This document shows positions 702 to 45,715 of a DNA stretch of 64,000 bases, piece after piece. Where the stretch lies: positions 62,001 through 126,000 of the forward strand of contig JAFDYT010000005.1 in the NCBI GenBank assembly GCA_018266055.1. Reading direction: 5' to 3'. Within the stretch, counting starts at the first letter, position 1. The number at the start of each line of letters is the position of its first letter. The translations under genes were made by a program, and so were the position numbers. Source of the DNA: Bacteroidota bacterium. GTDB lineage: Bacteria > Bacteroidota > Bacteroidia > Cytophagales > Cyclobacteriaceae. The notes under the pieces were generated by a model. It searched no databases, was not told the DNA's origin, and was given only the letters and a program-made list of their open reading frames with translations.

Positions 702-1520
702 ATGAAAATAGCTATTCTTGACTTGTATGATGGCGAAGCAAACGAAGGGATGCGATGCATTCATCAATTGATTGACCAATTCAAGTCAGAAGTTTCCTTT
801 TCTGTAACCCACCAGGTATTCGACGTTCGTCGGAATCTGGAAATCGCCGACCTGAGTTTTGATGTGTACATTTCCTCGGGGGGACCGGGTAGCCCTATCG
901 CCAGCGCTGGGAGCGAATGGGAGCGAAACTATTTTGCATTGATGGATGGGATCCTAAAACACAATCGCGAGAATCCGCATCAGCGAAAATTTGTATTTCT
1001 CATTTGTCATTCGATGCAAATTTTTTGCAGGTATTATAATTATGCCAAAGTGAGCAAACGAAAAAGTACCTCGTTTGGGGTGATGCCGATGCACAAAACG
1101 AAAGAAGGGAAAAAGGAAAAATTGTTTGGACAACTTGAAGATCCCTTTTATGCCGTTGACTCTCGCGATTACCAAATTCTTCAGCCCAACGAAGCAAAAA
1201 TCTGGTCGGGTGGCGGGCAGGTGTTGTGCATAGAAAAAGAGCGACCGCTGGTTCCTTTTGAGCGCGCTGTCATGGCCATTCGATTCAACGAAGCCATTGT
1301 GGGCACCCAGTTTCATCCCGAAGTAGATAGTGACGGCATGCATCTTTATTTGCTGCGTGACGACAAAAAGAAAATCGTAACGGAGAAGTACGGCGAAAAA
1401 AAATACTTTCAGATGTTGCAGATGCTTAATGATCCTGACAAAATAAAACGTACTTATCGCACGGTGCTTCCGGATTTTTTGCATTCGGCAGCGCAAGTTT
1501 ATAATCCCGTCGAGGCATGA
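702..1520 (+). CDS. Class I glutamine amidotransferase-like protein
   Basis: 272 residues with the class I (triad) amidotransferase fold. An oxyanion segment SSGGPGSP lies at 58-65, the nucleophile C102 is in FLICHSM, and the His/Glu partners H205 and E207 are in GTQFHPEVD. It resembles the stand-alone GMP-synthase-like amidotransferases rather than GuaA, CarA or TrpG, because no synthase domain follows. The family hydrolyses glutamine to supply ammonia, or hydrolyses gamma-glutamyl amides. Its stop overlaps the start of the next gene (ATGA, 4 bases), so the two are surely co-translated. That partner is an ATP-grasp-like ligase, suggesting an amidotransferase/ligase pair. The substrate is unknown. 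Confidence 0.8.
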   Translation: MKIAILDLYDGEANEGMRCIHQLIDQFKSEVSFSVTHQVFDVRRNLEIADLSFDVYISSGGPGSPIASAGSEWERNYFALMDGILKHNRENPHQRKFVFLICHSMQIFCRYYNYAKVSKRKSTSFGVMPMHKTKEGKKEKLFGQLEDPFYAVDSRDYQILQPNEAKIWSGGGQVLCIEKERPLVPFERAVMAIRFNEAIVGTQFHPEVDSDGMHLYLLRDDKKKIVTEKYGEKKYFQMLQMLNDPDKIKRTYRTVLPDFLHSAAQVYNPVEA

Positions 1521-2713
1521 TTAGTGAAGTTCGCCAGCACTACAATGCTTCGTTCTCTGAAAAAAAGTATTCCGACTTTTTAGCTGACCTCAACCGCAGC
1601 TTTGATTATAAAATTACGTTCCGCGTGGCGGAGAGCCCCGTGTTTGTAGACAAAACGTTCAAACGAAAATTACGTGAGGCCTCTGATCACATTATCGACT
1701 TCCTGGTTCGCGACGATTTTAAATCGCTTACGCAAAAGGCTATCCCACAGCAACTGTTTGTTCCCAACGAAACCCATCATTCTCTTTTTCTTGCGCTTGA
1801 CTATGCGGTGGTGAAGGATGCCCATGGTGCATTGACTCCTCAGTTGATTGAGATGCAGGGTTTCCCATCCTTGTTTGGATTTCAGGATTTTGTTGCTTCA
1901 AAGTATAAAGAGCATTTCTACTGCCCAGAAGGCTTCAATAACCATTTCGGTCTGACCAACGAGCAATACAGGAATGAATTAAAAAATGTGCTACTCAATG
2001 GTCATTCGCCTGAGAATGTGATCTTATTGGAGATTGATCCCTTGAAACAAAATACGGCTATTGATTTTTTGATCACCGAGAAAATCACTGGTATTACACC
2101 TGTTCATATTGGCGATGTGATTCGCGAAGGCAAAAATCTTTTTTATCATAAAAATGGAAAGAAGATTCTAATCAGACGAATTTACAACCGCGTGATCTTC
2201 GACGAGCTGGTAAAACGAACAGACCTTAACTTGTCTTTCAATCTGACCGAGGAGGTTGACGTCGAGTGGGCCGGTCACCCCAACTGGTTTTTTCGCATCA
2301 GCAAGTTTACCATGCCGATGATTAAGAGTCCGTACATTCCTGAATGCCGGTTCTTGAATGAATACGAAACGGCTCCCACTGACCTTGAGAATTATGTGCT
2401 CAAACCGCTGTTTTCCTTTTCAGGAAGCGGCGTAATCTTTCACGTAACAAAAGCAGACTGGGACGCTATCAATGAAGAGGAACGCGGAAATTATTTGCTG
2501 CAACGAAAAATTCAATACGAACCGGTGATCGAAGCCATCGAAGGGAAAGTGAAAGCTGAAATTCGCCTTTTGTTTTTCTGGAAAGAAAATCAATTACGTC
2601 CAACACTGGTGACTAACCTGGCTCGGTTAAGCCGTGGCGAAATGATCGGCGTAAAATTCAATAAGGACAAAACCTGGGTAGGTGGATCGGTTTGCTTTTT
2701 CGAGCCTGACTAA
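1517..2713 (+). CDS. Putative ATP-grasp-type ligase (possibly circularly permuted)
   Basis: 398 residues, probably cytoplasmic (no signal peptide or membrane segment). The C-terminal half has ATP-grasp-like signals: a lysine in YVLKPLFSFSGSGV (K296 and glycines 303-305), then LLQRKI (329-331) and KAEIRLL with E348. The N-terminal half contains LIEMQGFPSLFG (110-121), which looks like the metal-binding E-x-N/Q-x-x-P strand that normally comes last; finding it first is what a circularly permuted ATP-grasp would show. It overlaps the amidotransferase gene by 4 bases, so the pair may form an amide or peptide bond using ammonia or an amino acid. It meets prmC tail to tail with a 4-base overlap. 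The family call is inference from motifs; substrate unknown. Confidence 0.55.
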   Translation: MISEVRQHYNASFSEKKYSDFLADLNRSFDYKITFRVAESPVFVDKTFKRKLREASDHIIDFLVRDDFKSLTQKAIPQQLFVPNETHHSLFLALDYAVVKDAHGALTPQLIEMQGFPSLFGFQDFVASKYKEHFYCPEGFNNHFGLTNEQYRNELKNVLLNGHSPENVILLEIDPLKQNTAIDFLITEKITGITPVHIGDVIREGKNLFYHKNGKKILIRRIYNRVIFDELVKRTDLNLSFNLTEEVDVEWAGHPNWFFRISKFTMPMIKSPYIPECRFLNEYETAPTDLENYVLKPLFSFSGSGVIFHVTKADWDAINEEERGNYLLQRKIQYEPVIEAIEGKVKAEIRLLFFWKENQLRPTLVTNLARLSRGEMIGVKFNKDKTWVGGSVCFFEPD

Positions 2714-5721: not shown

Positions 5722-8700
5722 ATGCACATCAAATCTGCTCCTAAGTGGCCCTTCCGGGTCGCAAAAACCACGTTTTTAGCGTTTTTACTGACATCAATAG
5801 CTTTATCTGGCTTTGGCCAGACGATTTCAACATCTACCATTTCCGGAAGTCCATTTTGTGCAGGGACGTCAGTTAACGTGCCTTATACGATAACAGGATC
5901 TTTTACTGGAGGAAACGTCTTTACCGCCCAGCTTTCAGATGCAACGGGTTCATTTGCCTCGCCCACGGCTATTGGCAACGTAACGGCAACAACGGCCGGA
6001 ACGATTTCGGCTACAATTCCGCTTACCCAGGCTGCGGGTACACTTTATAGAATTAGAGTAGTGAGTTCCTCCCCAGTAATTACAGGAACAGATAATGGGG
6101 CCAATTTGACCGTTACCGCTATTGGTTTGAGTGCTCCCACGGTAGCGGGTTCACCGTTTTGTGCTGGGTCGACATTCACCATTACCAATAATTTAGCCAA
6201 TGCCTGTACGTTCGGGGCCGGAAACACTTTTTCAGTTCAGCTTTCAGATGCGGCCGGAAGTTTTGCGGCACCCACTACCATTGGATCGCTGTCAACAACA
6301 TCGGGAGGTTCAATTTCGGTTACAATTCCTTTGACAACCGCCGCAGGGGCCGGATATAAAATTCAGGTAGTAAGCTCTAGCCCAGTATTGACAAGTGCGG
6401 CGAGCGGTGCATTTACAGTTACGGCGTTAGGTATTAGCGCTCCCACAGTTACGGGTTCACCGTTTTGTGCGGGTTCCACTTTTAACATTACTAATAACCT
6501 CGCTAATGCCTGTACGTTCGGGCCTGGAAATACTTTTTCAGTTCAGCTATCTAATGCGGCCGGAAGTTTTGCGGCGCCCACTACCATTGGATCGTTGTCA
6601 ACAACATCGGGAGGTTCAATTTCGGTTACGATTCCTTTATCAACCGCCGCAGGGGCCGGATACAAAATTCAGGTAGTAAGCTCTAGCCCAGTATTGACAA
6701 GTGCGGCGAGCAGTGCATTTACAGTCACGGCTTTAGGTATTAGCGCTCCCACAGTTACGGGTTCCCCGTTTTGTGCGGGCTCCACTTTTAACATTACTAA
6801 TAACCTTGCTAATGCCTGTACTTTTGGTACAGGAAATACTTTTTCAGTTCAGCTTTCAGATGCCGCGGGAAGTTTTGCTTCACCCACTACCATTGGATCG
6901 CTGTCAACAACATCGGGAGGTACAATTTCGGTTACGATTCCTTTGACCATGGCGGCTGGCGCCGGATATAAAATGCAAGTGGTAAGCTCGAGTCCTGTGT
7001 TGACGAGTGCGGCGAGCAGTGCATTTACAATTACAGCCTTAGGCATCAATGCTCCAACCGTGAGTTCACCGATGTGTCAGGGGGCAACCTTTAATATCAC
7101 CAACAATTTGCCTAACGTCTGTGCCTTTGGTTCGGGCAATACCTTTACTGTACAACTGTCGGATGCCACCGGAAGCTTTGCAGCGCCCACGGCCATCGGA
7201 TCTGGAACCGCATCGGGTGCGATTTCTGTAACGATCCCACAATCCCAGGCTACCGGGACACTATATAAAGTAAGAGTTATTTCGTCTAACCCGGCGATTA
7301 TTGGAACCGCTACAGGAAGCTTAACGATTAATGCACCAGGTCTGAATGCGCCCACGGGAACAGCAACACGATGCGCAGGAACTACATTTACTTTGACCAA
7401 CAACCTTACGGGATGTAATTTCTTTAGCGGCAACACCTTTACGGCTTACCTATCTGATGCTGCCGGAAGTTTTGCTTCTCCGACCTCGATTGGAACCTTA
7501 ACAGCTGTCTCGGGAAATATATCCGTAACCTTACCTGCCACTGCTGTTTCAGGAGCGGGCTACAAGATTCAGGTTGTTTCATCAAGTCCGGTCGTGACCA
7601 GTCCGGCAAGTGCTGCGTTTCAAATCAATGCCATCGCGCTTAATGCGCCTACTTTCGGTGCAACCACATACTGTCAGGGGGCAACCTTTACATTGACTTA
7701 CTCATACCCCAATGCGTGCCCTTTTGTATCCGGCAATACTTTCACTGCTCAACTTTCAGATGCATTTGGGGGATTTAGTTCTCCAACTACCATTGGAACA
7801 ACAACCGCCACCGCAGCAGGAAATTTTTCAGTTACCATTCCTACTAGCACACCAGCCGGCAATGCCTACCGTATCCGCGTGGTAGCATCAAACCCTTCTG
7901 TAATTAGCCCTGATAATGGAGCCAACATTACAATCAATGCTTTTGGAATTTCACTGCCAAGTTTTGCTGCAACTTCATTTTGTCAGAATTCTACATTCTC
8001 GCTCACATATACCATTTTGAATAGCTGTAATTTTCCCAATACGCCATCCGCTAACGTATTCACCGCTCAGCTTTCAGATGCTTTGGGGAGTTTTGCATCG
8101 CCGACAACCATTGGTACTGTTACCTCGGCGACTAACGGTACCATCAATGTGACCATACCCAGCAACACTCCGGCTGGATCTGGATACAGAATACGCGTGG
8201 TGAGTTCAAATCCTGGTACGGGTGTGATCGGGCCTGACAACGGTACTAATTTAAATATTACTGCTACGGCTGGAACCCCTTCAGTATTTGGAAATGGGGT
8301 GTGGAATGCGTACGTCTATAACAGCAACAACTTCACTAACTACAGCGGTTTTTATACCGAAAACAATTTAAGTTTTAACTCAGCATCACGATTTGCAAAT
8401 ACGGCGCCACCTTCTAACGCAGATGCTTCTTCGGGCCTTGCTTACAGCGGATGTGTTACCAATGCAGCACCCTGGTCGATCAGTTACAAGAGGACCAATT
8501 TTACCTGTGGCTATTATCAAATTGATATTCCCACGCACGACGATAACCTCACACTGCTTATCAATGGAGTGTCAGTGTATTCGGTGACGTGTTGTACTTC
8601 TAATCTCACGAATGTATGGACCGGTTTTCTTGGACCAGCGTCAACCGTTGAGTTTCAAATTGTGAACGGCGGTGGCCCTGGAAATCTTTCGGCTACATTT

Positions 8701-11700
8701 TCGAATCCAGCCAATCCTTTATCTGTAAGTACGGGAGTATCTATTTGTAGCGGTGCATCTACCACACTCACGGCAAGTTCGCCGGCGACGTTAACCTATG
8801 TGTGGAATCCGGGTGCACTTTCTGGCGCAAGCGTTTCGGTTAGCCCTACATCAACTACCACCTACACAGTTACGGGTACGGATGCGGTGACCGGTTGCTC
8901 TGTGAGCGGAAGTGTTTTGGTAACGGTATCAAACTCATTTACCACAGCGGTTTCTTCAAGCTTAGGTACAATTTGTTCTGGTGTAAATACATCGACTCTT
9001 ACGGCCAGTGGTGCCAATACCTACACCTGGTCTCCGGCCACCGGGCTAAGCGCCACTACGGGAAATGTGGTGACGGCAAATCCTGCAAGCACTACCACCT
9101 ATACCGTGACGGGAAGCAACGGATGTACAACCAATTCAGCCAACGTAACTGTAACCGTGCAGAATATTCCGGCGTCACCGGTCAACACTACTTTTGGTAA
9201 TGGCACGTGGAATGTATTCTGTCATAACAACACCACGTGGAGCAATTACTACGGCTACTACACCGAGAATAACCTTAGCTTTAACACGACCTCACGATGG
9301 AACGCAAGCAATGGTCCTACAGTAGCGAATGCAGCTTCAGGCCTTGCGTATTCCGGTTGTACGTTTGGGACGACCTCTTATTCGATGAGTTTCAGAAGGA
9401 CAAATTTTACCTGCGGATACTATCAAATCGATATTCCTTCACACGACGATAATGTCACCTTGCTGATTAACGGTACACAAGTATTTCAACACAACGGATG
9501 TTGTGATGCGCACACCAATGTGTGGACTGGTTTTCTGGGAGCTTCGTCAACCGTAGAATTTTTACTCATTAACGGTGCCGGCCCTGGTTCCCTTCAGGTG
9601 GCTTTCAGCGCGTCGACCTCATCACCCCAAACCTTGAACAGTAATTCGACGATCTGTGCAGGAACGACAGCAAACTTGTCCGCTTCTTCTTCGCTGTCAG
9701 GCGCCACATACACCTGGTCAATTAGCCCAACAGACCCTTCGATCAGTTTTTCACCCAGCAATACAGGTACGAATCCATTTGTGGTTACGACGGCCGCAAC
9801 ACCTGCTACTACTTACACTGTGACCAATGTGCTTACCGATGCTGGCGGTACAGGCTGTACCGCTTCAGCTACGACCCTATTGACGGTAAATCCTTTGCCA
9901 ACTACGGCGGTCACACCAACTGCGGTCACTACAACATGCCCGAGTGCAGGAATAACCCTTACGGCGAGCGGAGCGAACACGTATGCGTGGTCTCCCTCCA
10001 CAGGGTTAAGTGCAACTACTGGTTTTTCTGTGGTTGCTTCGCCGACAGTCACCACAACCTACACAGTAGCGGGTAGCAACAACTGTAGTGTGAATTCTGC
10101 GACTACAACTATTACAGTAGTTCCACTTCCCGCCTACACCACTTTCCCTTCAGGCACATGGAATGTCTACGGATTTAATTCCACCACCGTGGGCACCAAT
10201 TATGTAGGCTACTATACAGAAAATGGATCGGGCGCCAGCACGTACGATTTTAACACCGCTACACGTTGGACCAGCGGAGCAGCGCCATCAACCGCCAACG
10301 CAACGAATGGAATTGCGTGGCAGGGTTGTACCATGAACGCCACCAACATGAGCATGAGTTACAAGCGCACAAACTTTGCCTGCGGAGTTTACCAGATCAA
10401 TATCCTTAACCACGACGATGGAGTTGTTCTATTAATCAACGGAACCCAGGTTGCGGCGCACAATGGATGTTGCGATACTCACACCGCAATCTGGACTGGT
10501 GTTCTTAATTCTGCGAGCACAGTAGAATGGCAATTGGTTCAAGGTGCCGGCGGATCAGGTCTTTCCGTTCAGTTTGTTCCGGTATCACAGACTGCGAATA
10601 TCTGGAGTGGCTCAGTCAGCAACGATTGGTCAAACGCAGCCAACTGGTGTACAAGTGTTCCCACTTCCACTACCGATGCGGTTATATTTTCGGCCGGCCC
10701 TCAAAACATGCCTAGCATAATCAGCACAGGTGCAGTGGTAAGAAACCTTACGGTGAACGGAGCTATTTCAGTAGGTGCTTACAACAGTGCCATCGCGGCA
10801 GCATCGGTTACTACAGCTACAACGAACAACCTTGATGTGTATGGTAATTGGACCAACAATGGTACTTATACGGCGAACAGCGGCTCGGTTTCTTTTGTCG
10901 GTGCTAACGCTGGTAACACCATCAGCAATGCCAGTCCAACTACATTTTATAATTTGATTTTGAATAAAACGAACCCGATCACCAATTCTTCAGGAATTAT
11001 TCAGGTAAGTAACAACCTCACTTTTACCGCAGGAGTGTTAACTCAAAACGCATCTCTCAAAATCTTAAACGGAGGATCGGTTTCAGGTGCGAGCAACACC
11101 AGCTTTGTGAATGGCACGGTAACCAAAGTCGGTAATACCGCCTTTACATTCCCGGTAGGAAGCGGAACATTCTATAGACCCATTTCGATTTCGGCACCAT
11201 CACTGACGACCGATAATTTCACAGCGCAATATTTTAATTCAAGTGCCAATGGAACCTATCCGCTTGCGCAGAAGGCCGCCACGTTTGATCACGTGAGTGC
11301 TGCAGAATATTGGATACTCAACCGGACCGGCGGTACTTCAAATGTAGCGGTTACTTTGAGTTGGAATACCAACAGTGGAGGTGTTGGAAGCCTTTCATCG
11401 TTGCGCGTAGCGCGCTGGGATGTGGGTTCTTCCAAATGGCTTGATGAAGGAACGAACGGATCTCCTACCGGGAATACCACCGCAGGAACTGTAACTTCTG
11501 CTGCAGCTGTTTCAACCTTTGGCTCTCCGAATAGTCCGTTTACGTTGGGAACCGCCGATAATTTCAATACACTCCCGGTTGAGTTGACTAATTTTTCTTG
11601 TGCCTTGCAACCGGATAATAGTGTAAGATTAACCTGGATTACCCGGAGTGAATTAAACAATGATTCTTTTGAAATAGAACGCTCCACCGACGGAGGGACG

Positions 11701-12114
11701 TTCACGCTCATTGGTTCAGTAAAAGGAGCCGGTACTACGTCCACACAACATAGTTATTTGTTCAACGACAATTCACCGGTAGCCGGAAGAATCTATTATC
11801 GTCTGGTGCAAATTGATTTTGATGGAAAGAAAACATATTCCGAAGTATGCTCGGTTGAAGTTGAGTCCGTGTCACACCAAGTAAACATTTATCCAAATCC
11901 GGCAACAAATATGACGACTATTGATTGTAGCGGATTAGTGAATGTGTCGGCGGTGCGACTGCTCAATTCCCTCGGCGAGGAAATTTTTGTACTCACGGAA
12001 ATTCATACTCAGCAAGTACAACTCAGCACCGGTGAGCAACCCAACGGTTTGTATTTTGTGGAAGTGGTTTCTGCCAACGGACGATTCAAAAGCAAACTGA
12101 TCATTGCACGCTAG
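5722..12114 (+). CDS. Giant repetitive surface protein with T9SS type A sorting domain
   Basis: 2130 residues, exported by Sec (signal peptide about 1-33, ending SGFGQ) and then through the type IX secretion system. Eight Ig-like units of about 100 residues span roughly 34-853, each with one N-terminal cysteine and most with a second; units at 135-440 are nearly identical (306-bp DNA repeats). Next come three copies of a roughly 140-residue module starting near 854, 1154 and 1473, with conserved GxWNxxxxN, FTCGYYQI-like, HDDxxxLLING and (in copies 2 and 3) HNGCCD motifs. These modules are separated by pairs of PKD/Ig-like domains rich in TTTYTVTG. A region of about 1625-1920 contains a NW-type beta-solenoid-like segment, a fibronectin-like domain follows (about 1950-2045), and the T9SS type A signal begins VNIYPNPA at 2054. 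It is likely an adhesin or carbohydrate-binding surface protein. It is monocistronic. Confidence 0.9.
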   Translation: MHIKSAPKWPFRVAKTTFLAFLLTSIALSGFGQTISTSTISGSPFCAGTSVNVPYTITGSFTGGNVFTAQLSDATGSFASPTAIGNVTATTAGTISATIPLTQAAGTLYRIRVVSSSPVITGTDNGANLTVTAIGLSAPTVAGSPFCAGSTFTITNNLANACTFGAGNTFSVQLSDAAGSFAAPTTIGSLSTTSGGSISVTIPLTTAAGAGYKIQVVSSSPVLTSAASGAFTVTALGISAPTVTGSPFCAGSTFNITNNLANACTFGPGNTFSVQLSNAAGSFAAPTTIGSLSTTSGGSISVTIPLSTAAGAGYKIQVVSSSPVLTSAASSAFTVTALGISAPTVTGSPFCAGSTFNITNNLANACTFGTGNTFSVQLSDAAGSFASPTTIGSLSTTSGGTISVTIPLTMAAGAGYKMQVVSSSPVLTSAASSAFTITALGINAPTVSSPMCQGATFNITNNLPNVCAFGSGNTFTVQLSDATGSFAAPTAIGSGTASGAISVTIPQSQATGTLYKVRVISSNPAIIGTATGSLTINAPGLNAPTGTATRCAGTTFTLTNNLTGCNFFSGNTFTAYLSDAAGSFASPTSIGTLTAVSGNISVTLPATAVSGAGYKIQVVSSSPVVTSPASAAFQINAIALNAPTFGATTYCQGATFTLTYSYPNACPFVSGNTFTAQLSDAFGGFSSPTTIGTTTATAAGNFSVTIPTSTPAGNAYRIRVVASNPSVISPDNGANITINAFGISLPSFAATSFCQNSTFSLTYTILNSCNFPNTPSANVFTAQLSDALGSFASPTTIGTVTSATNGTINVTIPSNTPAGSGYRIRVVSSNPGTGVIGPDNGTNLNITATAGTPSVFGNGVWNAYVYNSNNFTNYSGFYTENNLSFNSASRFANTAPPSNADASSGLAYSGCVTNAAPWSISYKRTNFTCGYYQIDIPTHDDNLTLLINGVSVYSVTCCTSNLTNVWTGFLGPASTVEFQIVNGGGPGNLSATFSNPANPLSVSTGVSICSGASTTLTASSPATLTYVWNPGALSGASVSVSPTSTTTYTVTGTDAVTGCSVSGSVLVTVSNSFTTAVSSSLGTICSGVNTSTLTASGANTYTWSPATGLSATTGNVVTANPASTTTYTVTGSNGCTTNSANVTVTVQNIPASPVNTTFGNGTWNVFCHNNTTWSNYYGYYTENNLSFNTTSRWNASNGPTVANAASGLAYSGCTFGTTSYSMSFRRTNFTCGYYQIDIPSHDDNVTLLINGTQVFQHNGCCDAHTNVWTGFLGASSTVEFLLINGAGPGSLQVAFSASTSSPQTLNSNSTICAGTTANLSASSSLSGATYTWSISPTDPSISFSPSNTGTNPFVVTTAATPATTYTVTNVLTDAGGTGCTASATTLLTVNPLPTTAVTPTAVTTTCPSAGITLTASGANTYAWSPSTGLSATTGFSVVASPTVTTTYTVAGSNNCSVNSATTTITVVPLPAYTTFPSGTWNVYGFNSTTVGTNYVGYYTENGSGASTYDFNTATRWTSGAAPSTANATNGIAWQGCTMNATNMSMSYKRTNFACGVYQINILNHDDGVVLLINGTQVAAHNGCCDTHTAIWTGVLNSASTVEWQLVQGAGGSGLSVQFVPVSQTANIWSGSVSNDWSNAANWCTSVPTSTTDAVIFSAGPQNMPSIISTGAVVRNLTVNGAISVGAYNSAIAAASVTTATTNNLDVYGNWTNNGTYTANSGSVSFVGANAGNTISNASPTTFYNLILNKTNPITNSSGIIQVSNNLTFTAGVLTQNASLKILNGGSVSGASNTSFVNGTVTKVGNTAFTFPVGSGTFYRPISISAPSLTTDNFTAQYFNSSANGTYPLAQKAATFDHVSAAEYWILNRTGGTSNVAVTLSWNTNSGGVGSLSSLRVARWDVGSSKWLDEGTNGSPTGNTTAGTVTSAAAVSTFGSPNSPFTLGTADNFNTLPVELTNFSCALQPDNSVRLTWITRSELNNDSFEIERSTDGGTFTLIGSVKGAGTTSTQHSYLFNDNSPVAGRIYYRLVQIDFDGKKTYSEVCSVEVESVSHQVNIYPNPATNMTTIDCSGLVNVSAVRLLNSLGEEIFVLTEIHTQQVQLSTGEQPNGLYFVEVVSANGRFKSKLIIAR
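6124..7041 (+). repeat. Three near-identical 306-bp tandem repeats inside the T9SS gene
   Basis: Units begin at 6124, 6430 and 6736, each exactly 306 bp (102 codons) and in frame, differing at a modest number of positions. Flanking units (before 6124 and after 7042) encode the same domain but are much more diverged. The pattern points to recent in-frame duplication or gene conversion, and to possible copy-number variation between strains or assemblies. Confidence 0.9.
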
Positions 12115-37992: not shown

Positions 37993-38197
37993 ACTGATTT
38001 AATATTCTTGCTTGTTAACATTGCTTCCTGCGAATTCGGCATTAACTGCAATGTTAAATTTGTATAAAGAATTCACAAAATTCAATTTTTTAGATTCAAC
38101 AAAGACCATATATTGCCGCTTCCTTTTTGCGCATGGACAATACCCAATTTATCCAAAAGAAAAGATCAACCTTATATCGTATCCTCTTTATAATCTA

Positions 38198-39684: not shown

Positions 39685-40851
39685 ATGAAACTAAGGGAAG
39701 TGATCAGCGAAAGCGACAAAAAGGAATTCCTGCATTTACCGTTGCAGTTGTATAAAAATTCTCCTCAGTGGATCAGGCCGCTTGACAAAGACGTTGAATT
39801 GGTTTTTGATACTGAAAAAAATAAATCTTTTCGCACGGGTGAGTGCATTCGGTGGATTTTGCTGAATGATGAAGGAAAAACGATTGGAAGGATTGCTGCC
39901 TTTTACGACAACAAAATCACAAATAAAGGAAACGATCAGCCTACAGGTTCATTTGGTTTCTTTGAATGCATCCAGGATCAGGCGGCAGCTTTTTTACTTT
40001 TTGATCAGTGCCGTCAATGGCTTCAGACTAAAGGAATGGAGGCCATGGATGGCCCTGTCAACTTCGGGAGCCGTGACCGCTGGTGGGGTTTGCTGATTGA
40101 AGGTTATGACCTTCAACCCAATTATCAATGCAACTACAACCCACCGTATTACAAAGACTTTTTTGAGGCGTACGGATTTCAGGTTTATTTTTATCAGTTG
40201 ACTTTCGGTAGAAAGATTGATGGTCCGCTCGACGAAAAACTTTACGAAAAAGCAAAACTGATCGCGAAGGATCCGGCGTACCGTTTTGAATATTTACGAA
40301 AAAAAGACTGGAATACGCTGGCTGATAAAATCAGGCAAGTGTACAATAAAGCATGGGCGAATCGCGGTGAGATTCCTGAACTTACTGATCAACAAGCAAA
40401 GCTGATCGTAAAGCAGATGAAGCCCATCATGGATGAAAAACTGATTTGGTTTGGCTACTATGAAAACGAACCCATTGCGTTCTTTCTTTCTCTGCCTGAA
40501 GTGAATCAGATATTTAAATTTTTGAATGGCCGATTTGATTTGTTGGCCAAGCTAAAATTTGTATGGCACTCGTGGCGTAAAACCAGTAAAAAAGCATTTG
40601 GCGTTTTGTTTGGCGTGGTGCCTGGCCATCAGGGTAAAGGTGTGGACGGTGCCATCATCGAAGCATTTCGGGTGTTGCACCAGAATGAATACTTACGCTA
40701 CACCGAGTATGAGATGAACTGGATTGGAGATTTTAACAGCAAGATGATCCGCGTATGCGAGCAGATCAATGCAGTAGTAGTAAAACGTCACGCTACCTAC
40801 CGCAAATTGTTTGACGAATCCAAGCCCTTCAAGCGGTATCCAATACGGTAA
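39685..40851 (+). CDS. GNAT/Fem-like acyltransferase of unknown substrate (YghO-like)
   Basis: 388 residues. A GNAT-like acetyl-CoA binding motif GHQGKGVDGAIIEAF is near 310-325, and the N-terminal half has TGECIRWILLNDEGKTIGRIAAFYD, a second GNAT-like sheet. Two GNAT-like lobes and about 390 residues are also the layout of Fem-type peptidoglycan amino acid transferases, though family members are usually labelled GNAT or YghO-like. It follows the histidine kinase by 11 bases and ends 6 bases from the convergent GCS2-type ligase. Substrate unknown. Confidence 0.75.
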   Translation: MKLREVISESDKKEFLHLPLQLYKNSPQWIRPLDKDVELVFDTEKNKSFRTGECIRWILLNDEGKTIGRIAAFYDNKITNKGNDQPTGSFGFFECIQDQAAAFLLFDQCRQWLQTKGMEAMDGPVNFGSRDRWWGLLIEGYDLQPNYQCNYNPPYYKDFFEAYGFQVYFYQLTFGRKIDGPLDEKLYEKAKLIAKDPAYRFEYLRKKDWNTLADKIRQVYNKAWANRGEIPELTDQQAKLIVKQMKPIMDEKLIWFGYYENEPIAFFLSLPEVNQIFKFLNGRFDLLAKLKFVWHSWRKTSKKAFGVLFGVVPGHQGKGVDGAIIEAFRVLHQNEYLRYTEYEMNWIGDFNSKMIRVCEQINAVVVKRHATYRKLFDESKPFKRYPIR

Positions 40852-40857
40852 TAGAAA

Positions 40858-41955
40858 TTACACACCTACCAGCGTCTGCTCGGTGATGTAATCCACTACA
40901 CGCTCCAGACTTTTAGTTTGCTCATACACTTTCAGCTGGCGGTCGGCGCCGGTGCCGTGTTCTAAGATTTTCCGTACGTCGTTAATGGCTTGTCGGCTTC
41001 CGAGTTCGTCTACCACATCGTCTACGAAATCAATTAATTCCATAAGCAGTGCGCGCGTATCTACCTGCTGCTGCTTTCCAAAGTCGATCAACTTGCCATC
41101 AATGCCGTAGCGCGAAGCGCGCCATTTGTTTTCGTTGATGAGTGCGCGGTTGTACATAATGAAACTCATGTTTTGCATGCGCAGTTTGTAGAGTTTGGCA
41201 ACCAATGCTTGAAAGAGCGCTGCGATGGCAATGGTTTCTTCCACACGCAAGGGCACATCACAAATTCGAAACTCAATCGTGTCGAAGAAGGGATGAACGC
41301 GTACGTCCCACCAGATTTTTTTTGCGTTATCGATGCAACTGGTTTTGATCAGCAGGTTGATGTAGTTTTTATAATCATCCCAGTCGTTGAAGTATTCAGG
41401 AATTCCCGTGCGGGGAAATTTATCAAACACTTTCGTGCGAAATGATTTGAATCCGGTATTGCGCCCTTCCCAGAAAGGTGAGTTTGCCGATAGCGCATAG
41501 ACGTGCGGCAAAAAGTAGCGCACGGTATTCATGATGTGAATGGCCATGTTTTTGTCGGCAATGCCCACATGCACGTGCAATCCAAAAATCAGGTTTGAAC
41601 GAGCGGCTTCCTGCATTTCGTTAACGATCTCGTCGTAGCGCGGATTGGGGGTGATGAGTTGCGTGCTCCAATGCGAAATGGGGTGAGTGCCGGCCGCACC
41701 AATTTTTAGGTTAAGGCTGGCGGCCACTTCAGCCACATATTTGCGTAGCCGCGAGATATCATGGCGGGCTTCTTCTACATTGTTGCAGATGCCCGTTCCC
41801 ACTTCCACAACGGCCTGGTGCATTTCGGCTTTGACGTGGTCTTTCAATACCTGCGACGCGATCTCTACAATTTTCTGGTCGTGCGATTTTAGTTCGCGCG
41901 TCACCGGGTCGATCACCATGTATTCTTCTTCAACTCCGAGCGTAAATTTTTCCAT
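40858..41955 (-). CDS. Carboxylate-amine ligase, GCS2 family (YbdK-like)
   Basis: 365 residues from MEKFTLGVEEEYMVID at 41955. The opening GVEEEYM supplies the metal-binding glutamates of the glutamate-cysteine ligase 2 fold. FGLHVHVGI, LSANSPFWEG and VHPFFDTIEFRICDVP are also family landmarks. The E. coli relative YbdK has weak glutamate-cysteine ligase activity, but many members ligate other carboxylates and amines. Upstream on the same strand are a GxxExxY gene, an ATP-grasp ligase and an esterase, so it probably belongs to a metabolite-building operon. The longer frame to 42003 reaches into a repeat and is not used. Confidence 0.9.
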   Translation of the reverse strand: MEKFTLGVEEEYMVIDPVTRELKSHDQKIVEIASQVLKDHVKAEMHQAVVEVGTGICNNVEEARHDISRLRKYVAEVAASLNLKIGAAGTHPISHWSTQLITPNPRYDEIVNEMQEAARSNLIFGLHVHVGIADKNMAIHIMNTVRYFLPHVYALSANSPFWEGRNTGFKSFRTKVFDKFPRTGIPEYFNDWDDYKNYINLLIKTSCIDNAKKIWWDVRVHPFFDTIEFRICDVPLRVEETIAIAALFQALVAKLYKLRMQNMSFIMYNRALINENKWRASRYGIDGKLIDFGKQQQVDTRALLMELIDFVDDVVDELGSRQAINDVRKILEHGTGADRQLKVYEQTKSLERVVDYITEQTLVGV

Positions 41956-41990
41956 AGTTCGCTTTTCTCTAAAAGTCCTTTTGTCGGTCA

Positions 41991-42013
41991 AGCAAAGGCG
42001 CAAGGACGCAAGG
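41991..42013 (+). repeat. Left inverted repeat flanking the GxxExxY gene
   Basis: The segment contains GCAAAGGCGCAAGGACGCAA reading toward the GxxExxY gene. Its first 12 bases (GCAAAGGCGCAA) recur exactly, inverted, in the right copy at 42405-42430, and about 18 of 22 bases match overall. It lies between the GCS2 start (41955) and the GxxExxY stop (42021). Confidence 0.7.
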
Positions 42014-42020
42014 TTAAGGT

Positions 42021-42398
42021 TTACAAATTATTTACTATTCGTTGAATTCCATTCTTGATTAGAGCTTCATTGAAATTTACAAGGAGCCCAAGTTTCAGTC
42101 CAGTCAATCGCAAGTATGTTAGTAGTTGCTTTTGGTGAACTGGCAAAACAGTTTCTATTGATTTAATTTCAAGAATCACTTTGTTTTCCACTACAATGTC
42201 GGCCCTAAACCCAATCTCCATTTTCATTTCCCTAAAATATACAGGAATCTCTTTTTGACGTTCTATCGGTACTTCATTCTTACGAAACAGATAAAATAAG
42301 CATTCTTCGTAAACCGATTCAAAAAGGCCTGGCCCCAATTCCTTGTGCACCTGATAACAGCAATCAACGGCAATTTTGGAAATTTCATTTTCCGTCAT
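42021..42398 (-). CDS. GxxExxY family PD-(D/E)xK protein
   Basis: From Met13 of the open frame (42398, MTENEISK) it is 125 residues. The name-giving motif is GLFESVY (G24, E27, Y30) and a PD-(D/E)xK nuclease-like core follows: D67 in FRADIVV, then E77-I-K79 in LEIKS. The family is common in Bacteroidota, Planctomycetes and Verrucomicrobia and its function is unknown. The frame could start at 42434, but those extra residues (MHAKAQKRKKC) are encoded by the flanking inverted repeat. The gene plus repeats looks inserted between two ligase genes of one operon. Confidence 0.88.
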   Translation of the reverse strand: MTENEISKIAVDCCYQVHKELGPGLFESVYEECLFYLFRKNEVPIERQKEIPVYFREMKMEIGFRADIVVENKVILEIKSIETVLPVHQKQLLTYLRLTGLKLGLLVNFNEALIKNGIQRIVNNL

Positions 42399-42404
42399 CC
42401 GACA

Positions 42405-42430
42405 CTTTTTGCGTTTTTGCGCCTTTGCGT
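42405..42430 (-). repeat. Right inverted repeat flanking the GxxExxY gene
   Basis: Read on the minus strand this begins ACGCAAAGGCGCAAAAACGC, an inverted copy of the repeat at 41991-42013 with two GG-to-AA differences. It ends about 4 bases from the stop of the ATP-grasp gene (42435) and covers the apparent N-terminal extension of the GxxExxY frame. Confidence 0.7.
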
Positions 42431-42434
42431 GCAA

Positions 42435-43436
42435 CTATTTCTTCCTGGTTGACTTAACCGCAGCTTTTGGTTTCGCTGCTGCGGCCGGTTCAAAATCAGC
42501 TACTGAGTTTCTTACAAACGTTCCCCAGGTGAGGTTGTCTTTGCCCGGCTTTTGAGCTTTGGCTCTTTCCACTGCATACTTTGCCGCATGCTCTACTACC
42601 CATTCGAAATTTTCCTGACCCACGGATTTCACATCGGCGTCAGGGGCTGGATTGCAAAAATCGATGGCGTAAGGCACGCCGTCGCGCACAGCCATTTCAA
42701 CGGTATTAAAATCATAGCCCAGTGCGTTGCACAAATCCAGAACATAATCATGCACTTTTTTCACCAGCTTGTCGGATGCTGGCGGGCCATTCACCACATA
42801 GCGCAGGTGGTGCGGGTTGCGTGGTTCATACTGCATCACGCGCACGTATTTCCGCCCGAGGCAATAGCACCGGAAATATTCGGTGAAAATAATTTCTTCC
42901 TGAAGCATCATCACCAATTGGCCGGTTTCGCGGTACGCGTTAAAAAAATCGTCGGGGCCGTTTAGCTTATAAACGCTTTTCCACCCGCCACCAGCGTGAG
43001 GCTTCATGTAGGCAGGCCAGCCGATATGCGCGAATATTTTCTCCCAACTCAGCGGGAATTTCAAATTGCTGAACGAACTATCTTGTGTGTCGGTCGGTCT
43101 TTCGTGTGAGGGAAGAATCACCGTTTTAGGAACCGGTACTCCAAGCTTCACCGCGAGCGCATTGTTAAAAAACTTTTCATCGGCGCTCCACCAAAAGGGG
43201 TTATTGATCACCGCCGTGCCGCTGATGGCCGCGTTTTTCAAATAGGCGCGGTAAAAGGGTACGTCCTGCGAAATCCGGTCGATGATTACGGCGTAACCAT
43301 CGCCCACACCTTGTTGCACCATGTCGATGGAAACGGGCTCAGCCTGAATATCTTTCAATCCCATTTTGTTGATTCGCTCAACGAACGCTTCGGGAAATGA
43401 GCGCTCCATGCCGTGGAGTATTCCGATTTTTTTCAT
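42435..43436 (-). CDS. ATP-grasp ligase (RimK-like)
   Basis: 333 residues. ATP-grasp features in order: PAYMKPHAGGGWKSVYK with K145 and a glycine loop (149-151), MMLQEEIIFTEYFRCYCLG with the adenine-binding strand (178-194), and TVEMAVRDGVPYAIDFCNPAPD with the magnesium ligands E247, D259 and N262. A low-complexity lysine/alanine tail (AAAAKPKAAVKSTRKK) ends the protein. The family joins a carboxylate to an amine or thiol. It is cytosolic. The esterase gene is 30 bases upstream and the GCS2-type ligase is downstream beyond the GxxExxY insertion, suggesting two successive ligations. Substrate unknown. Confidence 0.9.
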   Translation of the reverse strand: MKKIGILHGMERSFPEAFVERINKMGLKDIQAEPVSIDMVQQGVGDGYAVIIDRISQDVPFYRAYLKNAAISGTAVINNPFWWSADEKFFNNALAVKLGVPVPKTVILPSHERPTDTQDSSFSNLKFPLSWEKIFAHIGWPAYMKPHAGGGWKSVYKLNGPDDFFNAYRETGQLVMMLQEEIIFTEYFRCYCLGRKYVRVMQYEPRNPHHLRYVVNGPPASDKLVKKVHDYVLDLCNALGYDFNTVEMAVRDGVPYAIDFCNPAPDADVKSVGQENFEWVVEHAAKYAVERAKAQKPGKDNLTWGTFVRNSVADFEPAAAAKPKAAVKSTRKK

Positions 43437-43466
43437 GTGCCTTTAGGTTTCAAATGGTTTGGTGAA

Positions 43467-44177
43467 CTACTTTATGAGTGATAGATAGTGAGGAAACATT
43501 TCGCGCCAGGCTGGCCAGTCGTGGGGTCGTTCAGGGCGAACGTCAAGCCAGTGGTGAATTCCCTTGGCGAATAGAATGTCCGCCATTTTTTCGTTGGCAT
43601 GCCAGCACATGTCGTGTGTGCCGGTACCCAATACCACAAACATATCTTGAAAGAAATTACTGTGAGCACCGGGAATAAAATCTGGCGGGTTATTGAAATA
43701 GACGTTGTCGTCGTAATATCCATCGAGCTGATCGCGGATATCAAAGGCTGCGCCCATATTAAAAACATATTTCACCACTTCCGGATGCCGGAATGCAAAG
43801 TTGGTGGCGTGGTATCCGCCGAAACTACACCCGGCCGTAGCCACGCGGCCTATGCCGGTTTCGCGTTGCGCCAGTGGCACGAGCTCGTTGTACACCATCT
43901 GATCATACCAAATGTGATTTCGTACACGATCGGCAGGATGAATATTTTTGTTGTACCAGCTGTCGCTATCTATTCCGTCGGGACAATAAATCTTCACGAG
44001 TCCTTCGTCAAGAAACCACGATACACTTTCAATCAATTTGAAATCCTTGTTTTCATAATACCGCCCCATCGAGGTTGGGAAAAGGATCACCGGATAGCCT
44101 CTCGTTCCAAAGGCAAGCACATCAATATCGCGGCTCAGCGCCGGTGAGTACCATCGGTGATGATGTTCGTGCGGCAT
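43467..44177 (-). CDS. Alpha/beta-hydrolase fold esterase
   Basis: 236 residues, cytosolic by sequence (no signal peptide). The nucleophile elbow is TAGCSFGGYHA, with the acid and base probably in the GTGTHDMCWHA and RPHDWPAW segments. It belongs to the putative esterase (esterase D-like) group. It starts the minus-strand run esterase, ATP-grasp, GxxExxY, GCS2, and is divergent from a second esterase 115 bases away. The two esterases are different in sequence. It may hydrolyse or transfer a product of the ligases (inference). Confidence 0.88.
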   Translation of the reverse strand: MPHEHHHRWYSPALSRDIDVLAFGTRGYPVILFPTSMGRYYENKDFKLIESVSWFLDEGLVKIYCPDGIDSDSWYNKNIHPADRVRNHIWYDQMVYNELVPLAQRETGIGRVATAGCSFGGYHATNFAFRHPEVVKYVFNMGAAFDIRDQLDGYYDDNVYFNNPPDFIPGAHSNFFQDMFVVLGTGTHDMCWHANEKMADILFAKGIHHWLDVRPERPHDWPAWREMFPHYLSLIK

Positions 44178-44217
44178 AATTTAATGATCAATAGTCAAGG
44201 CAATGAAAAAGATAGTT

Positions 44218-44225
44218 TATTTTTG
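44218..44225 (+). promoter_or_regulatory. Bacteroidota -7 promoter box (TATTTTTG)
   Basis: TATTTTTG matches TAnnTTTG exactly in the 115-base divergent region between the two esterase genes, 67 bases before the GTG start at 44293. The leader would be fairly long. Confidence 0.4.
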
Positions 44226-44292
44226 ACCCCTTTAAGTTGGCGAATAAAAACTTAACGACAAACAGTCGTCAAAAAATTAACCAAACGAAAAC

Positions 44293-45096
44293 GTGCGAGC
44301 GACCTACAGTGAAGAAACAATCTCGGCTTACTCCAGTTTATTGAATCGTGAGGTGACGGTGACTGTTTTGCTTCCGCCTGATTACAGTGCAGGCAACACT
44401 AAATTCCCTTTGCTGATACTCAACGATGGCCAGGACATGAAGGCGTTGAACCTGAAGCAAACGATTGAAGAACTTACTTCTGTTTCTGAGGTGGAGCACG
44501 TGATCGTTGCCGGTGTAGTGGCGGGCGATCGCCTGCAGGAATATGGAGTGGCGGCGCAGCGCGATTACCTCAAGCGCGGCCGGTCGGCCAAAGCATATAC
44601 AAAATACATCACCACCGAACTCATTCCGTATTTGATTTATAAATTTCCGGTTGATGCCGACGCGAATCGTCATGCTATTGCGGGTTGCTCAATGGGCGGG
44701 CTCAGTGCGATTGACATTGCATGGAATCACCCCGAACTGTTTCGAAGGGTGGGCGTATTCAGCGGATCATTTTGGTGGCGTAAGCGCGATAGCGCCAGCC
44801 GGTTTTATTCTGACCACCGCGACAGGCTGATGCATCGGCAGGTGCGCAACGGACGAAAAAAAGAAGGATTGAAATTTTGGTTTCAAACCGGGACACTCGA
44901 CGAGCAGAGTGACCGCAACAAAAACGGTGTGATCGATTCCATTGATGATACTCTCGATTTGATTGTGGAACTGGTGAAAAAAAATTATCGCCCGTTTTAT
45001 GACATTCACTATCACGAAGTGAAAGAAGGGCATCACGACATTAAAACCTGGGCCGAGGCATTTCCGGAATTTTTAAAATGGGCATTTGGAAAGTAA
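44293..45096 (+). CDS. Alpha/beta-hydrolase fold esterase (Fes/esterase D-like)
   Basis: 267 residues starting at GTG (44293). The frame opens with a region like other putative esterases: REVTVTVLLPPDY, FPLLILNDGQDM, then the nucleophile elbow AGCSMGGLSAID, with the acid probably in the TGTLDEQSDRNKNG loop and a catalytic His in KEGHHDIKTW near the end. There is no signal peptide, unlike ferric siderophore esterases of the periplasm. A HAD phosphatase gene begins 5 bases after the stop. With the divergent esterase it frames the ligase genes. Confidence 0.88.
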   Translation: MRATYSEETISAYSSLLNREVTVTVLLPPDYSAGNTKFPLLILNDGQDMKALNLKQTIEELTSVSEVEHVIVAGVVAGDRLQEYGVAAQRDYLKRGRSAKAYTKYITTELIPYLIYKFPVDADANRHAIAGCSMGGLSAIDIAWNHPELFRRVGVFSGSFWWRKRDSASRFYSDHRDRLMHRQVRNGRKKEGLKFWFQTGTLDEQSDRNKNGVIDSIDDTLDLIVELVKKNYRPFYDIHYHEVKEGHHDIKTWAEAFPEFLKWAFGK

Positions 45097-45100
45097 TGAT

Positions 45101-45715
45101 ATGGAGAAAGGAATAGAGACTATTGTGTTTGACCTTGGCGGCGTGTTGATCGATTGGAATCCTCGCCACCTGTACCGGAAAATTTTTAAAACCGAAGACG
45201 AGATTGAATGGTTTTTGCAAAACGTGTGCACCCACGACTGGAATGAAAAGCAGGATGCAGGCCGATCTTTTGAAGAAGCGACGCAAGAACTGCTTGAAAA
45301 ATTTCCCGAACACGAAGAGCCCATTCGTGCCTGGTACGGGCGCTGGGAAGAAACCATCAACGGACCGATTCATGATACTGTTGAAATCCTGAAAGAAATT
45401 CGTGACTCAAAGAAATACAGATTGTATGCTCTCACCAACTGGTCGGCGCAGACTTTTCCGTGGGCGCTGAGCAATTTTGAATATCTCCATTGGTTTGAAG
45501 GCATCGTCGTGAGCGGCCACGAGAAAACCAGAAAGCCCTTTCCGGAATTCTATCAAATTCTTTTGGACCGCTATTCGATTGATCCGGCCAAAACAATTTT
45601 TATTGACGACGTTCCACGCAATCTTGGCGGAGCGGAGGCGATGGGTATTCGAGGGATTCATTTTCAAAGTCCAGATCAGTTGCGGGCCGACCTGAAGGTC
45701 TTGGGTCTTCTCTAA
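45101..45715 (+). CDS. HAD superfamily hydrolase (IA variant)
   Basis: 204 residues from MEKGIET. HAD motif I is IVFDLGGVLIDWN, in which the second Asp of DxD is Gly as in YihX/epoxide hydrolase-like members. Motif II is LTNWS, a lysine follows in HEKTRKP, and motif IV is FIDDVPRNL. The cap is a small helical bundle (about 16-80). Members are sugar phosphatases or dehalogenase-like. It follows the esterase gene by 5 bases and is likely co-transcribed with it. An in-frame TTG at 45086 is rejected as start because it would overlap the esterase stop. Confidence 0.9.
   Translation: MEKGIETIVFDLGGVLIDWNPRHLYRKIFKTEDEIEWFLQNVCTHDWNEKQDAGRSFEEATQELLEKFPEHEEPIRAWYGRWEETINGPIHDTVEILKEIRDSKKYRLYALTNWSAQTFPWALSNFEYLHWFEGIVVSGHEKTRKPFPEFYQILLDRYSIDPAKTIFIDDVPRNLGGAEAMGIRGIHFQSPDQLRADLKVLGLL

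Follow-up and report, generated by a model that had tools for sequence, protein, structure and literature searches.

Six linked genes of the Bacteroidota encoding three unlike ligases, an amidotransferase-like protein and two esterases, with a predicted role in small-amide metabolism

Do two groups of ligase and hydrolase genes that lie ~40 kb apart in the genome of a Bacteroidota bacterium of the family Cyclobacteriaceae serve one pathway? The window, which is the whole 64,000-nucleotide stretch analyzed here, covers positions 62001-126000 of contig C17 in a 4.79 Mb genome (G000; relatives are labelled G, and fetched or named loci L). Near its left end, the gene for a class I glutamine amidotransferase-like protein (GATase, 702..1520, plus strand) overlaps by 4 bases the gene for a putative ATP-grasp ligase, ATPg2 (1517..2713, plus strand). 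The second group consists of GCS2, a predicted carboxylate-amine ligase (40858..41955, minus strand), ATPg1, a second putative ATP-grasp ligase (42435..43436, minus strand), and two alpha/beta-hydrolases of the esterase family, EstA (43467..44177, minus strand) and EstB (44293..45096, plus strand). The conserved linkage and the near all-or-none distribution of these six genes indicate that they very probably form one functional unit acting in one pathway. A shared pathway had been proposed in the first-pass annotation of this DNA; linkage and co-distribution now support that part of the proposal, whereas the shared product it implied is still a prediction.

To describe the distribution, one set of 116 relatives was searched for each of seven window proteins. 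ATPg1 is present in 64 of them, GATase and ATPg2 in 62 each, EstA in 61, and GCS2 and EstB in 60 each. The six-gene set is complete in 51 relatives, wholly lacking in 49 and partial in 16, and seven of the genomes with partial sets (G014, G021, G029, G045, G049, G051 and G054) are listed at 70-90% completeness. Dropped before counting were ATPg1 in G093, GCS2 in G016, G068 and G085 with second weak matches in G001, G007 and G014, ATPg2 in G092 and G107 with small fragments, and, as paralogues or fragments, EstA below ~290 bits and EstB below ~225 bits (including an EstB fragment in G014 and a 142-bit EstA relative in G102); ATPg1 of G057 was retained though visible only as two fragments. Every gene pair co-occurs with Fisher p < 1e-18, and EstA and EstB, found together in 59 genomes, with p 2e-29, values that count genomes and not independent events.

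The genes are co-located far beyond chance. The starts of ATPg1 and GCS2 lie at most 5 kb apart in 56/60 genomes, those of GATase and ATPg2 at most 3 kb apart in 54/60, and those of ATPg1 and ATPg2 at most 8 kb apart in 45/62. In 48 of the 57 genomes that have both GCS2 and GATase, the two genes start no more than 3 kb apart, and the cluster is unbroken on many named Bacteroidota loci, so that the 702-2713 pair does adjoin the 40-45 kb genes elsewhere and the two loci belong together, as had been suggested. In the other nine genomes the starts of GCS2 and GATase are not that close; these are the window genome, its congeners G001, G002, G033 and G052, then G058, whose ATPg1, GCS2 and GATase genes are spread over three contigs, and, elsewhere in the order, G079, G086 and G110.

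The usual order in the fetched neighborhoods, which we take to be ancestral, is EstB on the minus strand, then EstA-ATPg1-GCS2-GATase-ATPg2, and in several congeners (L052, L055, L056, L067, L068 and L069) PrmC- and RibD-like genes follow; these two labels, like that of the histidine kinase mentioned below, are our reading of the sequences with no family search behind them. In the window, the GATase-ATPg2 pair still has PrmC- and RibD-like genes behind it, which locates the break between GCS2 and GATase. We conclude that a rearrangement in the window lineage cut the cluster at this point. The split is common to the window genome and the same four congeners, where the pair lies on the same contig at a distance of ~25 kb (G052) or on another contig (G001, G002 and G033). 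The six genes might be neighbors by chance or common ancestry only, with no joint pathway, and the relatedness of the genomes does make the counts non-independent. However, presence is near all-or-none in one genus and in other families, the order is identical in distant families, and in G072, G091 and G106 the five genes other than GCS2 are kept although they lie on separate contigs or far apart. Retention without linkage argues for function and not merely shared DNA, and we consider an explanation by chance or ancestry highly improbable.

Across the phylum, ATPg1 was found at E 0.001 in 137 of 395 sampled genomes, three of them only at E ~5e-4, and in 134 of the 371 whose completeness is 90% or more and contamination 5% or less. 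Among 80 named loci found by way of ATPg1, 73 have a match to GCS2, 62 to EstA, 57 each to GATase and ATPg2 and 56 to EstB; these loci are the best 80 of at least 583 confirmed ATPg1 relatives, lean to close relatives and include some contigs that end early. Among them are Pedobacter, Algoriphagus, Belliella, Arcicella, Runella, Emticicia, Flavobacterium, Polaribacter and Sediminibacterium loci. The cluster is found again in members of Pedobacter, Algoriphagus and Flavobacterium, and partial loci include one of Sediminibacterium with only EstB, ATPg1 and GCS2 (L174) and one of Runella with EstA, ATPg1 and GCS2 (L175). EstA adjoins ATPg1 on 54 of its 62 named loci, GATase and ATPg2 are adjacent on 55 of 57, and the median gaps between adjacent open reading frames are operon-like (27 bases for ATPg1-GCS2, 8.5 for GCS2-GATase and 6 for GATase-ATPg2). 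The fetched regions and a further set of 32 phylum-wide genomes were hand-picked from the matches and are not a random sample; ATPg2 and GCS2 occur in the identical 17 of these 32 if GCS2 is counted from 450 bits upward, a threshold of our choosing.

GCS2 matches Pfam GCS2 at E 7e-68, a family with the glutamine-synthetase fold, and its start was taken as the ATG that gives 40858..41955 (the listed open reading frame extends to 42003). The protein scores 555 bits against NF010039 (PRK13515 'carboxylate-amine ligase', cut-off 371) and stays below the cut-offs for cyanobacterial GshA (TIGR02048, 76 vs 249 bits) and for EgtA (TIGR03444, 15 vs 371 bits). By these scores, GCS2 is a PRK13515 carboxylate-amine ligase, neither GshA nor EgtA. 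A firm place among glutathione ligases, which the earlier annotation had named as a finding that would speak against its proposal, is thus not what the profile scores give, and these are scores, not a tree. The PRK13515 model has one match above its cut-off in the window genome and none in 14 control genomes, five of which have matches below it. A second, distant GCS2-like gene of the window genome (G000:C17:471376-472212, L220) reaches 56 bits, under the family cut-off.

GhExE has been given as the signature of carboxylate-amine ligases (PMC2588565). In GCS2 this signature reads GVEEE at residues 7-11, with G7, E9 and E11 common with Escherichia coli YbdK, which also keeps it. YbdK is identical to GCS2 at 99 of 362 aligned residues and retains 61 of the 126 GCS2 residues that are invariant across the cluster; the signature and these shared residues suggest that GCS2 should be active as a carboxylate-amine ligase. 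The two differ in that GCS2 lies above the PRK13515 cut-off but below that of PRK13516 (YbdK), and the genes neighboring ybdK are unrelated to this cluster. What PMC2588565 says of the family points to gamma-glutamate as the probable GCS2 substrate. Like glutathione synthesis by GshA and GshB, the cluster combines a GCS2-fold ligase with a following ATP-grasp ligase; unlike it, the GCS2 protein is in PRK13515 and not GshA, and there is a second, permuted ATP-grasp ligase.

ATPg1 has weak matches to RimK/LysX and R2K-clade models. Its KP..GGG and D..N residues, which we take to be the ATP-grasp motifs, are invariant in 15 aligned orthologues and stand in the canonical ATP-grasp order, and ATPg1 is the most conserved of the six proteins, 39% of the columns in its 15-row alignment being invariant. 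The window protein scores 13.2 bits against Pfam R2K_2, below the cut-off of 26.2, and 26 of 28 ATPg1 family members match this model weakly (best E 2e-4). Its closest PDB match is D-Ala-D-Ala ligase (E 0.021). Profile comparisons showed no significant similarity to E. coli GshB and no direct homology to ATPg2 (P 0.4-0.5), and a search for plasmid-borne ATPg1 copies gave no match at E 1e-5. Diverged ATPg1 relatives with 31-43% identity occur in G122, G201, G273, G397 and G497, which lack GCS2, GATase and ATPg2 matches, and perhaps belong to a different system.

The R2K clade is predicted to modify proteins (PMC4431377). The weak R2K likeness of ATPg1 and its very high conservation would fit a tagging system, with ATPg1 and ATPg2 linking amino acids to proteins or ribosomal peptides and the esterases and peptidases undoing the modification. 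Pup-like tagging or a graspetide RiPP system would have a small conserved substrate gene in its operon. The median gaps of 6-42 bases between co-directed genes leave little room for a conserved tag or precursor gene in the operon (open reading frames below 90 amino acids and genes elsewhere were unscreened), and we regard protein or peptide tagging as unlikely.

The ATPg2 window protein has no meaningful Pfam match, only a chance-level one to Sialidase (E 0.012). Among 31 members of its family, 13 match GSP_synth with E-values of 5 or less (the lowest being 9e-4), and permuted ATP-grasp models are matched as well. The ATPg2 profile compared with YgiC/YjfC/Gss gave P = 0.0015, the nine other profiles tried gave 0.027 or more, and the closest PDB match is YgiC (E 0.068). 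By pattern, an acidic metal-type motif at residue 112 precedes a KP lid-type motif at 296. The same acidic-then-KP order is found in YgiC and YjfC (acidic motif at 115 and 116, KP at 302 in both), in Gss and in three CP_ATPgrasp proteins, and the reverse order in GshB and DdlB; the pattern missed the KP of RimK. ATPg2 departs from YgiC, YjfC and Gss in that it aligns with them over ~64 columns at 27% identity, with weak statistics, and in a Q where N is expected in the acidic motif. These data suggest that ATPg2 is a circularly permuted ATP-grasp ligase resembling the glutathionylspermidine synthetase family, with a weak sequence match to it. YgiC and YjfC are named peptide--spermidine ligase in RefSeq, a naming for which Pederick et al. 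2023 is reportedly the source. They are termed peptidylpolyamine synthetases in PMC12568646.

GATase (Pfam GATase, E 3e-8) is the predicted peptidase or amidase of the pathway, and no close PDB relatives were found for it at E 0.1. In class I GATases and gamma-glutamyl peptidases, a Cys and a His-Pro-Glu are catalytic. The Cys is present in 13 and the His-Pro-Glu in all of 14 aligned rows, the window protein having both. The exceptional row, with Ser for the conserved Cys, is an orphan GATase of G092 (L050, 8386-9207), a genome for which the counts include none of the other five genes. In G170, G207, G365 and G381, an M29 aminopeptidase lies between GCS2 and ATPg2, in the position of GATase, and all four genomes are without a GATase match. 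Another arrangement is seen in nine genomes (G128, G145, G226, G249, G295, G330, G334, G364 and G400), in which a CP_ATPgrasp-like protein adjoins ATPg1; GATase has matches in all nine and ATPg2 in none. CP_ATPgrasp and M29 were identified by Pfam on two loci each and by our own profiles on the others.

These replacements bear on whether GATase could instead be a glutaminase that feeds ammonia to ATPg2, the result being a terminal carboxamide on a peptide made by GCS2 and ATPg1. Carbamoyl-phosphate synthetase is a precedent for such a hand-over of ammonia, and the overlap of the GATase and ATPg2 genes, their adjacency and close spacing in most genomes and the retained Cys all fit it. On the other hand, ATPg2 is still present on the four loci where M29 occupies the GATase position, ten further genomes have ATPg2 without a GATase match, and GATase accompanies CP_ATPgrasp in the nine genomes without ATPg2. 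Mainly because a peptidase occupies the position of GATase, we prefer trimming over ammonia supply and consider amidation improbable, though the least so of the alternatives.

Other variants also place hydrolases next to the ligases. A third ATP-grasp gene, an M17 leucyl aminopeptidase gene and an EstB-like gene lie beside the cluster on L163, L169, L172, L208 and L217 (5/80 named loci) and on L128; the third ligase is ATP-grasp_4 in the two scanned, and M17 is by Pfam in the one scanned. A third ATP-grasp without M17 is seen on L125 and, with the CP type, on L099. On L232, L234 and L240, ATPg2 is separate from ATPg1 and GCS2, and the protein encoded next to it is amidohydrolase-like (one Pfam-confirmed). 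The M29, M17 and amidohydrolase-like variants suggest that amide-cutting hydrolases recur beside these ligases.

EstA and EstB had been described as two unlike esterases, which agrees with our data: both match Pfam Esterase (EstA with 24 bits against a cut-off of 22, EstB with E 5e-36) and they are only distant kin (EstA profile vs EstB, E 6e-11). The GCSFGG sequence of EstA resembles a nucleophile elbow. EstB matches NCBIfam PRK10439 at E 6e-17, under its cut-off, and has a remote likeness to enterochelin and S-formylglutathione esterases. Many congeners, unlike the window, carry an extra alpha/beta-hydrolase gene between EstA and ATPg1 (15 loci, L053, L054, L060 and L070 among them, some genomes twice; Abhydrolase_1 in the one scanned).

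Together, the ligases and hydrolases of the cluster are likely both to make and to hydrolyze a small peptide-like amide. The explanation that we favor overall, at a probability of about 0.45, is that the genes encode a dedicated non-ribosomal pathway for the assembly and turnover of a small amide-linked pseudo-peptide, probably gamma-glutamyl. GCS2 would activate a carboxylate (the glutamate gamma-carboxylate being the likeliest) and join it to an amine or amino acid; ATPg1 would attach a further residue and ATPg2 couple a peptide carboxylate to an amine. GATase, or the M29 aminopeptidase in four genomes, would remove or trim a (gamma-)glutamyl or N-terminal residue, and EstA and EstB would cleave ester or thioester adducts. 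The substrates, the step order and the product are all predicted from protein families, and the specific gamma-glutamyl and amine-cap chemistry is tentative.

Several findings weigh against this pathway or parts of it. The tie between ATPg2 and GSP_synth is weak, with no GSP_synth match for the window protein and an hhalign probability of only 17%. GCS2 is not universal, and the pathway may therefore not always need it as a first step: G072, G091 and G106 are without a GCS2 match, the gene is missing from the cluster on L119, L125, L162, L196 and L216, which have ATPg1, GATase and ATPg2, and none of the nine CP_ATPgrasp genomes has a match of 450 bits or more (G226, G334, G364 and G400 have a relative with 40-49% identity away from ATPg1). 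Nor is a trimming enzyme always evident, as the ten genomes with ATPg1, GCS2 and ATPg2 but no GATase match show no M29 on their fetched loci either (for G142 and G193 these loci do not include the surroundings of ATPg1, and the search for M29 did not extend to the rest of the ten genomes). The class I GATase may also supply ammonia instead of acting as a peptidase.

The pairing of a glutamine-synthetase-fold ligase with an adjoining class I GATase also recalls PuuA and PuuD, which have these folds and act in the gamma-glutamylation of an amine. By analogy, GCS2 could add glutamate to an amine as a protecting group, later enzymes act on the product and GATase remove the glutamate. This is quite unlikely, since two or three ATP-grasp ligases exceed the needs of such a route and the neighborhoods inspected, in which neighbors were not identified systematically, do not regularly place an oxidase, a dehydrogenase or a transporter directly beside the cluster. 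The cluster resembles the predicted small-peptide systems in which Iyer, Abhiman, Burroughs and Aravind (2009) reportedly found GCS2, ATP-grasp and peptidase genes combined. Those amidoligase systems reportedly have a conserved neighborhood of amidoligase and peptidase genes, which is seen here too. Our literature search found no description of this cluster or its product, and the 2009 amidoligase survey may already depict the neighborhood.

The remaining genes of the region appear to be bystanders. The genes named in the first-pass annotation lie where it placed them, and Pfam supports GCS2, GATase, HAD and both esterases, but the gene that starts at 39685, labelled GNAT/Fem-like, has no match in Pfam or NCBIfam at E 0.01. 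This GNAT-like gene was rejected as a pathway member, with matches in 108 of 116 relatives, far wider than the cluster. In four relatives without the cluster (G005, G015, G031 and G041) it still adjoins a gene of the type at 38012, a histidine kinase-like gene, so we regard this pair, which in the window lies beside GCS2, as bystanders. The HAD gene (45101-45715, plus strand, Pfam) lies near or beside EstB in several congeners but is matched on 5/80 named loci and was not accepted as a core member. The earlier suggestion that these two genes belong to the pathway is not supported. Between GCS2 and ATPg1, a GxxExxY/PDDEXK_3 gene that had not been listed before (42021-42434, minus strand; Pfam and NCBIfam) is matched on one of the 80 named loci (L168) and looks like a local insertion. 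In a search for defence systems, the six genes had no PADLOC match at E 0.01, and the GxxExxY gene had a marginal one to Cas4 (E 0.0055). Elsewhere in the window, 5722-12114 (plus strand) encodes what, judged by eye, is a 2130-residue repetitive and probably secreted protein with near-identical repeated modules.

Interest in the cluster comes from the reach of ATPg1, with its presence in over a third of the sampled genomes (137/395) and on named Pedobacter, Algoriphagus, Flavobacterium and Runella contigs. New stand-alone amide-forming ligases are also in demand as biocatalysts (PMC12568646). It is conceivable, though we think it unlikely, that a large share of the Bacteroidota makes a gamma-glutamyl pseudo-peptide of low molecular weight that has so far gone undescribed and carries an amine or polyamine cap. 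Such a compound would be the bacterial equivalent of glutathionylspermidine or trypanothione, with three unlike stand-alone ligases to build it and a peptidase of its own and two esterases to maintain it. Because its presence within a genus is near all-or-none, the cluster lends itself to comparative metabolomics and to gene deletion.

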